The notes under the pieces: generated by a model | The model's database searches: none | What the model was told of the DNA's origin: nothing | Seen by the model: the letters and a program-made list of their open reading frames with translations, nothing else | Position numbers and translations under genes: made by a program | NCBI RefSeq assembly: GCF_024449025.1 | Contig: NZ_JAHLKM010000007.1 | Coordinates: forward strand, 12,970 to 76,969 | Length of the DNA: 64,000 bases | DNA from: Natronomonas aquatica | Lineage (GTDB): Archaea > Halobacteriota > Halobacteria > Halobacteriales > Haloarculaceae | Direction of reading: 5' to 3' | In this document: piece after piece, positions 3,432-6,213 of the stretch | How positions within the stretch are numbered: position 1 is the first letter of the stretch | Layout of the letters: every line of letters starts with the position of its first letter

Positions 3432-4379
3432 ATGACTCCGACCGTCGAATCGATCGCCGAGATGTCGGTCCTCCCCTATATCGATGTCCTCCTTTGGATC
3501 GTCGCGGCGGTTTTCGTGGTCGGCGTGATCGCACGCAGGGAGAACCGCGAGTGGGCCCGGCGGATCACCGCCGCCGGCTGGGGGCTGTTCGCGGTCCTTT
3601 GGCTCCTTTTCATCCAGTACTTCGCGTTCGTCCACCGGAGTGTCGTCGAGACGGCTTTGGTCGTGATCGCAGTACCGGCGTCCCTCTATGTCGGCTGGAA
3701 GCTCCTGAACGGCCGGGACTCGCTTTTGACGCTCTCGCGGGCGATCGCGTTCATGATGGTCATCTATCTCCCCTTCGAGACCTCCCAACTCGTTCGGGGG
3801 TTCCTGATCGAGACTGTTGCGTTTCAGACAGTGACGGCGATCGACTGGCTCGGGTTCGCCGAGGGCGTCCAGTACGTCGAGGACCCGGCTGCCGACTCCT
3901 CGCTGATGAACACCTTCTATTTCCCCGAAACGGGGAGGGCCTCCCGGCTCATCTTCGCGTGTACCGGCATCGGTTCGATGGCGATTTTCGGCGGCCTCAT
4001 CGCGGCCGCCGACGCCCCGCGACCCAAGAAACTGATCGCGGCCGTCGTCTCGATCTCGATCATCTGGGTGCTCAACATCGCCCGGAACGTCTTCATCGCG
4101 CTGGCGAACGGCTATCAGTGGTTCGCCGGTACGGCCCTCGAAGGCCCGGTGATGTTCGTCTTCGGGCTCTCGGATCCGGCCCGGGTTTCGTTTTTCGTCG
4201 CCGACCGGATCATCGCACAGGGACTGGCCGTCTTCGTTCTCGTCGGGATCGCGTGGCTCGCCTCCCGGTGGGTGCCGGAGCTGCTCGATATGGGCGAGGA
4301 GCTTCTCTCGGTGCTGCTCGGGCGGGAAATCAGGCTCCGGTCACCGGAGACAGCACCCGACGGCGGTGATCCGAAGTGA
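3432..4379 (+). CDS. artA: Archaeosortase A
   Basis: 315 residues from the ATG at 3432. Polytopic membrane protein of the exosortase/archaeosortase family with about seven or eight predicted helices. The catalytic set is visible: Cys177 in ACTGIGS, Arg218 in NIARN and Arg259 in VADRI, matching the Cys/Arg/Arg triad shown to be essential in Haloferax volcanii ArtA. ArtA cleaves the PGF-CTERM tripartite signal of S-layer glycoprotein and other surface proteins and couples it to lipid attachment. The next gene overlaps its stop codon by 4 bp, so the two are very likely co-translated. An upstream in-frame GTG at 3375 is less likely. Confidence 0.93.
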   Translation: MTPTVESIAEMSVLPYIDVLLWIVAAVFVVGVIARRENREWARRITAAGWGLFAVLWLLFIQYFAFVHRSVVETALVVIAVPASLYVGWKLLNGRDSLLTLSRAIAFMMVIYLPFETSQLVRGFLIETVAFQTVTAIDWLGFAEGVQYVEDPAADSSLMNTFYFPETGRASRLIFACTGIGSMAIFGGLIAAADAPRPKKLIAAVVSISIIWVLNIARNVFIALANGYQWFAGTALEGPVMFVFGLSDPARVSFFVADRIIAQGLAVFVLVGIAWLASRWVPELLDMGEELLSVLLGREIRLRSPETAPDGGDPK

Positions 4380-5407
4380 CGGAGGGAGACGCCGAGGACG
4401 CAGTCGACGGAGACGACGATGACGGAGACGGTGTGGGCGAGGTTTCCCGACGGCGGATCCTGTTCGGCGGCGCTGGGGGGCTCGCAGCCATCGGGGGCGG
4501 ACGGGCGATCTACAACACGTCCCTCGGCTACGGCGAATTCGGGATGGGGACGAACCTCCTCGAACAGGACCTGCCGTCGCTTCTCACCGAGCGGATATCG
4601 ACCGACTACGAGGGGACGATCGCGGGAACGCCCGTCCGGGTCGACGGGTCGACGATCGCCGTCGGCGGCGAGGAGGCCAGCCTCTCCTTTGTGGACGACG
4701 ACCGCGACGACGCCGCAGAGATCGACCTCGATCGCGGGATGGGAGGCCGGCTGGAGGCGCTGTTCGTCGACCTCTCGGCGTTCCACGCCGGCGACTACAC
4801 CTTCGAGTTCCACGGGCCGGAGGCCTTCTTCGAGCGGTTCGAGGGTACCGACGCCCGACCGGACCTCGTTACCTCGATCCGGGGCGACCGGACGATCGAT
4901 CCCGACGTAGTCGAGCGGTTCGCCGGCGCCGACCCGGCCGATCCGCCGGCGCTCGTCGAAGGGCTCGTCTCCGGTTTTCGGGAACACACGAGTTACGACG
5001 TCCCGCGGTACATCGCGGGCTCGATCGAGGACAACGTTCTCTTCGGTGCCTACGACCTCAGACAGTACTTCGAGGGGGACGTCGACTTCGAGGCCCTGCT
5101 GGAGAACGACGGGACCGGTATCTTCTGTTGGGAACTCGTTTTCCGCTCGATGGAAGCCCTACAGGCCGTCCCGACGATCGACCAGACGATCCCGGTCGCG
5201 ACCTGTTACGTGAGCGATATCCGGCACAAGCACGCCTTCACCGGCGTCGTGGGCGCGATCCGGGACGACGGCGAACTACGACTGCCGACGACGTTCCTCG
5301 ATTACACCCACTCGACGCTGTACGACGACGTCCACGCGACGGCCTTCCTCGGCGAGGGGCTGGCGGCGTACAACGACGGCCACCGCGCCGACGAGATCTA
5401 CTGGTAG
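4376..5407 (+). CDS. Tat-exported transglutaminase-like protein, ArtA partner gene
   Basis: 343 residues from a GTG at 4376 that overlaps the artA stop (GTGA). The N-terminus is acidic, then a twin-arginine signal (SRRRILFGG, near residues 24-32) and a hydrophobic stretch, so Tat export is likely. In the C-terminal third a Cys251 at the start of a helix (FCWELVF), His286 in HAF and Asp309 in LDYT reproduce the order and context of the transglutaminase/cysteine-protease Cys-His-Asp triad. I infer a secreted or surface enzyme acting on cell-wall proteins together with archaeosortase. The middle region resembles nothing I know. The fold assignment is inference from motif order; the annotation may elsewhere be simply hypothetical. 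Confidence 0.6.
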   Translation: MTEGDAEDAVDGDDDDGDGVGEVSRRRILFGGAGGLAAIGGGRAIYNTSLGYGEFGMGTNLLEQDLPSLLTERISTDYEGTIAGTPVRVDGSTIAVGGEEASLSFVDDDRDDAAEIDLDRGMGGRLEALFVDLSAFHAGDYTFEFHGPEAFFERFEGTDARPDLVTSIRGDRTIDPDVVERFAGADPADPPALVEGLVSGFREHTSYDVPRYIAGSIEDNVLFGAYDLRQYFEGDVDFEALLENDGTGIFCWELVFRSMEALQAVPTIDQTIPVATCYVSDIRHKHAFTGVVGAIRDDGELRLPTTFLDYTHSTLYDDVHATAFLGEGLAAYNDGHRADEIYW

Positions 5408-5412
5408 TTGTC

Positions 5413-6213
5413 TCAGACGGGATCCGGCAGCGCCCCCGACGGGGCGTCGGCGAGCCTCGAGAGCGCGTCGTGTTCGATGACGTGGAGATCGCCGGGGATC
5501 ACGAGCAGATGCAGCGGTTCGCCGAACGACAGATCGGCAAGCGAGGCGAGCCGATCGGCGGCCACGATCGGGTCCGGGCCGCCTGCGCGTGCGACAGCGA
5601 CGCCGAGTGCCTCGAGTTCACCGGCTAACAGTTCGGCCGCGTAGTGGGCGGTCATGTACTCCTCGTGGTTCGGATCTGTCCCCTCCGGTCCGATGCCGAT
5701 CTTGATATCGAGATAGACGAGGGTATGCAGTCCCCGATTGCGGTTCCCCTCGATCGTCTCGAGGACGCTTCCGGGTACGCCTTCGCCACCGTGGGCGTAG
5801 GGGAACGGGAGCGTCGTCGCCTTGCCGAAGCGGTAGTTCTGGAGGCCGGTCAGCGAGGCCGCCGCAGATCCCGCCGTCGTCCCGTGGACGACGTGGGTCT
5901 CGATCCCGCGCTCCTCGGCCCGGAGCCGCAGATCGACGTGGGTCGTCGAGATCATCGTATCGCCGGCCGTGAGAAAGACGGCATCGCCGGCTTCGGCGGC
6001 CGCGAGGATCGGCTCCGGATCCTCCTCGACGCCGGAGCGATCCCGGAGTTCGATCTCGACGCCGTGATACGCCGACAGCTCCTCGACAGTCGTGCCGGCC
6101 AGTTTGCTGGTGTAGAACTCCGCGAAGACGCGGTCGGCGCCGGCGACGGCCTCGCGACCCTCGACGGTGATCGACCGCTCGTCGTAGAGCCCGAGCCCGA
6201 CGAACGTGAGCAT
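5413..6213 (-). CDS. dph5: Diphthine synthase
   Basis: 266 residues from the ATG at 6211-6213. It belongs to the tetrapyrrole methylase-like SAM methyltransferase family: N-terminal MLTFVGLGLYD, glycine-rich LTAGDTM (near 83-89), and the Dph5 region around TGLQNYRFGK (near 122-131). It methylates the modified histidine of elongation factor aEF-2 during diphthamide synthesis. Its pathway partner Dph2 is also in this window (44113-45168) but not linked. Convergent with the transglutaminase-like gene, 5 bp apart. Confidence 0.95.
   Translation of the reverse strand: MLTFVGLGLYDERSITVEGREAVAGADRVFAEFYTSKLAGTTVEELSAYHGVEIELRDRSGVEEDPEPILAAAEAGDAVFLTAGDTMISTTHVDLRLRAEERGIETHVVHGTTAGSAAASLTGLQNYRFGKATTLPFPYAHGGEGVPGSVLETIEGNRNRGLHTLVYLDIKIGIGPEGTDPNHEEYMTAHYAAELLAGELEALGVAVARAGGPDPIVAADRLASLADLSFGEPLHLLVIPGDLHVIEHDALSRLADAPSGALPDPV

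Follow-up and report, generated by a model that had tools for sequence, protein, structure and literature searches.

The artA-TGL locus

The window is the whole stretch of DNA that was analysed, i.e. 64,000 nucleotides from Natronomonas aquatica. It includes an artA gene (TIGR04125, archaeosortase A, 305 bits for a cut-off of 75) overlapping a downstream gene of the same strand. The name TGL is coined here for the product of this second gene and for its family. The features of the locus are sorted by position; the evidence used is given in brackets.

3432..4379, + strand: artA of the TGL-associated lineage ('ArtA-T'), catalytic-type C177 and R218 retained (TIGR04125; tree; conserved columns)
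4376..4379, + strand: GTGA overlap, the GTG start codon of TGL lying within the stop codon of artA (sequence)
4376..5407, + strand: TGL, 343 aa, predicted exported transglutaminase-fold protein (ORF, homologues, alignment, AF2 model, VIA-align)
4448..4505, + strand: Tat-like segment, a signal or an N-terminal anchor, SRRRILFGGAGGLAAIGGGR, residues ~25-43 (conserved twin Arg, lipobox absent; PF10518)
4853..5404, + strand: predicted transglutaminase-fold domain, residues 160-343 (AF2 pLDDT, VIA-align PDB matches, repeated on a divergent homologue)
5126..5128, + strand: Cys251 (TGT), predicted nucleophile, N-terminus of helix 251-262 (C in 66/66; model position)
5231..5233, + strand: His286, predicted general base, start of strand 286-292 (H in 66/66; model)
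5300..5302, + strand: Asp309, predicted third residue of the triad, following strand 300-308 (D in 65/66, E in 1/66; model)
5413..6213, - strand: dphB/dph5, diphthine synthase, convergent, bounding the artA locus (TIGR00522, 233 bits)

The gene located at 4376-5407 does overlap artA, as proposed in a first-pass annotation. The overlap is 4 bp long, and TGL is probably translationally coupled to artA. The same annotation described TGL as "fused" into the artA operon: the overlap agrees with this wording, but the word is loose, TGL being an ORF of its own. TGL homologues (34-63% identity) are found by sequence search in 42 of 195 haloarchaeal genomes and therefore indicate that TGL is a true gene and not a chance ORF.

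The TGL family and its predicted fold

The profile search extends the family to 68 of the 392 genomes of the haloarchaeal order; distant homologues were looked for outside this order in 295 genomes of the phylum and none was found. The protein and its profile give only chance-level matches (e.g. phospholipase C_C, Cas7) to Pfam, NCBIfam and PDB sequences, so TGL is, by these comparisons, a previously undescribed haloarchaeal family.

Two alignments were used, one of 39 members and a larger one of 66 usable sequences. The Cys251-His286-Asp309 set put forward in the first-pass annotation is present in the ORF, and the local contexts HAF, LDYT and VSRRRILFGGAGG are found as quoted. Homologues lacking the triad, named there as evidence against the proposal, were searched for: the triad is C-H-D in 65 of the 66 aligned homologues and C-H-E in the remaining one. 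C251, H284 and H286 are invariant in both alignments, and R169, R211-Y212, R229, Y310 and R337 show little or no variation. C251 is the sole cysteine of most members.

The N-terminus carries a twin-arginine motif in 38 of the 39 aligned homologues (the remaining one has a mis-assigned start), followed by a weakly hydrophobic stretch with a mean hydropathy near 0.8. A lipobox is absent from these 39 N-termini. PF10518 (TAT_signal) matches 6 of the 39 members, with weak E-values. TGL sequences thus have the twin-arginine motif and the weakly hydrophobic stretch of a Tat-exported protein, which accords with the Tat signal announced in the first-pass annotation, and we infer that TGL is exported via Tat. 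N47, G51-Y52, N60 and Q64, just past the Tat-like segment, are also conserved; hence the N-terminus may be kept as a membrane anchor instead of being cleaved.

The AF2 model of the window TGL, built from the family alignment, has a pLDDT of 84.9 and a pTM of 0.80; within the domain formed by residues 160-343, pLDDT is mostly ≥90, with a dip at residues 311-330. In this model, C251 opens helix 251-262, H286 opens a strand and D309 closes the next long strand. When the model is compared with the PDB by VIA-align, the matches cover residues 160-343 and the head of the list is the transglutaminase superfamily: TglA (Z 7.2), factor XIII (6.8), PeiP (6.8), a TGase (4xz7; 6.8) and LapG (6.1), with TgpA, arylamine N-acetyltransferases and vasohibins also among the top matches. 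A second model, that of a homologue (L099) sharing 34% identity with the window TGL, has a pLDDT of 80.9 and gives TglA (Z 8.1), factor XIII (7.3), LapG (6.9) and PeiW (6.8); rows unrelated to the clan begin at about Z 3 in its list. TGM3 is likewise among the transglutaminase-fold matches. Foldseek alone gives no E below 0.1 for either model, and the fold call is based on VIA re-ranking and on its replication on the second model.

Pfam Transglut_core (PF01841) matches neither the window TGL nor any of the 39 members, and the profile-profile comparison of TGL with 26 haloarchaeal PF01841 domains is not significant: a weak local alignment pairs C with C and H with H, with a P of 0.33, and is given no weight here. 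A predicted structure devoid of a papain-like/transglutaminase core had been named as the other observation that would speak against the proposal. Such a core (clan CA fold) is present in both predicted models, with Z near 8 at best, and the residues follow the expected Cys-His-Asp/Glu order, with Cys at a helix N-terminus and His and Asp on or after strands. There is accordingly very little doubt, as far as models can tell, that TGL has a transglutaminase-type fold; the assignment is a strong prediction and not a proof. Given the conserved triad, TGL is also most probably catalytically active.

Genomic context and the associated archaeosortase lineage

In Haloferax volcanii, cleavage by ArtA depends on both PssD and PssA, S-layer lipidation is lost in the delta-pssA strain, and ArtA, PssA and PssD co-localise at midcell (PMC7157517). 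In the published model, called speculative by its authors, the amine of archaetidylethanolamine, which PssD produces, resolves the ArtA thioester (PMC7157517). artA, pssA and pssD were reported to be unclustered in >70 haloarchaea (PMC7157517).

The neighbouring genes were read around ~65 TGL homologues/genomes. TGL adjoins artA in 23 genomes, sharing its strand in about 22 of them, and lies directly downstream of pssD, on the same strand, in 18; about 24 of the 65 assessed homologues (approximately a third) adjoin neither gene. Gene order is inherited, so the genomes are not independent in these counts. The pssD neighbour corresponds to NF038088, "protein sorting system archaetidylserine decarboxylase" (327 bits for a cut-off of 240). 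In seven more genomes, all from one genus, 22-65 kb separate TGL from pssD, both genes being on the same strand; this layout resembles what decay of the pssD arrangement would leave. All 42 TGL-positive genomes of the sample carry PssD; no PssA was found near TGL in the first set of loci. In control loci devoid of TGL, artA usually abuts dphB directly (most TGL-less genomes examined) and pssD sits between a helicase gene and cdc48. TGL thus fills a slot located just downstream of artA or of pssD. The coupling to protein sorting proposed from the window locus is therefore supported beyond the original claim, which concerned artA only.

The context labels cluster strongly on the TGL tree, where 6 changes account for pssD linkage and 2 for artA linkage. 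A single clade of artA-linked TGLs is not rejected (AU p 0.335), and artA linkage may have arisen once; several origins are not demonstrated (AU p 0.335 and 0.323).

In a tree of 68 ArtAs, the TGL-linked copies form one lineage (23 rows, support 95/81). The other ArtAs, including dphB-adjacent copies from the same genomes, fall in another lineage. C177 and R218 are conserved across both. After addition of 14 further ArtAs from other genomes, the two lineages persist, but strict monophyly of the TGL-linked ArtAs is less well supported (75/82 with four f12 rows inside; 24% of bootstrap trees), because these four long-branch sequences fall beside the TGL-linked ArtAs. The TGL-linked ArtAs are for this reason treated, on the basis of the trees, as a separate lineage, strict monophyly not being claimed. 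The artA-linked gene orders are artA-TGL, TGL-artA and artA-TGL-artA; several genomes of the genus/family of the window have artA-TGL-artA-dphB or TGL-artA-artA-dphB. Genomes with two artA genes, one of which is TGL-linked, encode one ArtA of each lineage. A recent duplication giving rise to both ArtAs within the genus of the window is rejected (p-AU 0.0008). In the genome of the window, TIGR04125 matches only one protein, an ArtA of the TGL-linked type, and there are at least 7 PGF-CTERM matches, so this archaeosortase presumably serves PGF-CTERM proteins.

Several loci show additional features. A tandem pair of TGL genes is found upstream of two artA genes at L171 5128-8705 (G614); in the second copy, Glu replaces Asp309 and Phe replaces Tyr310, and the ORF between the copies encodes a membrane-looking piece of 141 residues without family match. 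At L189 4231-6554 (G521), a TGL flanked by two artA genes looks truncated, the genome being a draft (true loss or assembly error). In genus f17/g33 (L075, L076, L080, L093, L101, L103), the region 0.1-1.6 kb upstream of TGL contains a same-strand gene resembling pyroglutamyl-peptidase I, with scores just below the curated cut-offs. In family f14, a conserved gene is located directly downstream of TGL and is convergent to it (L085, L086, L088, L089, L092, L095, L104); it has no NCBIfam match. One genome (G220; L206 and L207) encodes two ArtAs, both of the non-TGL lineage, one adjoining dphB and one elsewhere; judged from the tree, this pair is a second, TGL-independent duplication of ArtA. Lastly, 17 genomes of family f1 encode ArtA without any PssD match to NF038088 (G003, G020, G059, G075, G083, G091, G103, G119, G125, G131, G143, G157, G162, G172, G177, G182, G191). 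Their ArtA may thus use a different lipid or amine. All 17 lack TGL.

Proposed role and comparison with known systems

The preferred reading is that TGL is an extracytoplasmic, membrane-proximal triad enzyme, accessory to lipid anchoring by ArtA and PssA/PssD (probability about 0.6). Its action somewhere in the ArtA/PssD pathway, taken alone, is likely; that its chemistry bears on the lipid-anchor amide itself is rather doubtful. Transglutaminase-fold enzymes hydrolyse an amide or exchange its amine, which is the type of bond found in the ArtA model. We infer that TGL acts as a thiol amidase or transamidase on lipid-anchored surface proteins. His286 and Asp309 would activate Cys251 for attack on the carbonyl of a carboxamide in an exported surface protein, giving a thioester. 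Resolution of this thioester by water would trim or release the anchor; alternatively, it would be resolved by a primary amine, e.g. the ethanolamine head group of the lipid completed by PssD. If TGL has a role in the pathway, hydrolytic trimming or release ranks as the likeliest chemistry, at somewhat less than even odds; transfer to the ethanolamine lipid comes second and is only tentatively considered, some other chemistry is rather unlikely and protein-protein crosslinking is more unlikely still. Most haloarchaea among the genomes searched encode ArtA without TGL. TGL therefore cannot be essential to the basic reaction, and an accessory or editing function is more likely for it than that of the basic ligase. 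A two-enzyme sorting system, in which the TGL-linked ArtA would cleave the C-terminal signal and TGL would make or remake the amide linking the protein to the ethanolamine lipid that PssA/PssD provide, is unlikely; if true, it would mean that lipid anchoring of the sortase-like kind can include a transamidase step of its own.

Alternatively, TGL could be a LapG-like surface protease acting on adhesins and/or the S-layer and having nothing to do with lipid anchoring; its position in the operons would then reflect only co-regulated surface growth. LapG, which releases surface adhesins (PMC4694147), is among the structural matches of both models (Z 6.1 and 6.9), and some TGL homologues lie outside sorting loci; a general surface protease would not readily account for the recurring adjacency to pssD, whose product serves lipid synthesis, and such a protease is an unlikely answer. 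The same adjacency points to a lipid head group and away from the protein-protein bonds expected of a true transglutaminase that would form Gln-Lys isopeptide crosslinks in the S-layer or in other surface proteins. Factor XIII and TGM3 are among the fold matches, and genes encoding PGF-CTERM S-layer-type glycoproteins belong to the same cluster in several TGL genomes, but an S-layer glycoprotein gene is found near artA in TGL-less genomes as well, so this link is not specific to TGL; moreover, most prokaryotic members of the transglutaminase fold are hydrolases. Crosslinking is thus improbable. The first-pass annotation had suggested a second surface-protein processing or crosslinking step coupled to sorting: the link to sorting holds, through artA and pssD, whereas crosslinking is one of several chemistries of the fold and is not the favoured one.

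The neighbourhood would have no functional meaning if TGL had entered the vicinity of pssD once and that of artA once and had then been kept by descent. The clustering of the context labels on the TGL tree (2 changes for artA, 6 for pssD) and the compatibility of the data with a single artA-linked clade (AU p 0.335) agree with such hitch-hiking. It is nevertheless about as improbable as crosslinking: both neighbours belong to a single pathway whose genes are not otherwise clustered in haloarchaea, a gene moving at random would land beside one or the other, on the same strand, in roughly 0.06% of moves (a coarse estimate), and the artA-linked TGLs accompany a separate ArtA lineage, with several gene orders among them. 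Inactive members of the transglutaminase fold exist, and TGL might be an inert scaffold or chaperone; the retention of C, H and D in 65 of 66 TGLs and the avoidance of Cys elsewhere in the protein make this very improbable.

The transglutaminase fold superfamily and archaeosortase are already known. For the TGL family, its linkage to artA/pssD and the TGL-associated ArtA lineage, no description was found in the freely accessible literature searched; the same search found no paper joining archaeosortase or exosortase with a transglutaminase. The way in which haloarchaeal surface proteins are joined to a membrane lipid and later released or remodelled is described by an ArtA chemistry that its authors label speculative (PMC7157517). 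TGL, a neighbour of artA in some genomes and of pssD in others, is thus a direct candidate for a missing step and is probably an overlooked part of how haloarchaea build or edit their protein coat. TIGR04125 lumps two ArtA lineages, which matters when the anchoring chemistry is deduced from the presence of "artA".

The predicted core of TGL over residues 160-343, with a Cys that opens a helix and with His and Asp located further along on strands, resembles those of clan CA (TglA, factor XIII, LapG, PeiP/PeiW, NATs, vasohibins), and the spacing of 35 between its C and H equals that of C169/H204 in vasohibin-1 (PMC4866520). TGL differs from all members of Pfam, NCBIfam and PDB by the lack of detectable sequence similarity, by its restriction to haloarchaea, by invariant residues of its own (R169, R211-Y212, R229, H284, Y310, R337) and by a conserved N-terminal region with N60/Q64. 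It resembles the ArtA/PssA/PssD system of Haloferax volcanii in its context, since its gene adjoins that of ArtA or of PssD, and TIGR04125 includes the artA of the window; the published system does not include TGL, and the window ArtA belongs to a lineage separate from the dphB-adjacent ArtA of most haloarchaea. Like LapG, TGL would be an exported transglutaminase-fold cysteine enzyme (predicted) controlling the retention of surface proteins; it has no sequence relation to LapG, which itself has no link to C-terminal sorting. In the rhombosortase/GlyGly-CTERM system of Vibrio cholerae, the protease is unrelated and no transglutaminase-fold partner is described (PMC6219818). A separate transamidase has been discussed for that system, without evidence for one (PMC6219818). 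There too, the new C-terminus of a surface protein is joined to an ethanolamine-containing moiety (PMC6219818), and the rhombosortase system of Vibrio may thereby serve as a useful analogy for TGL.
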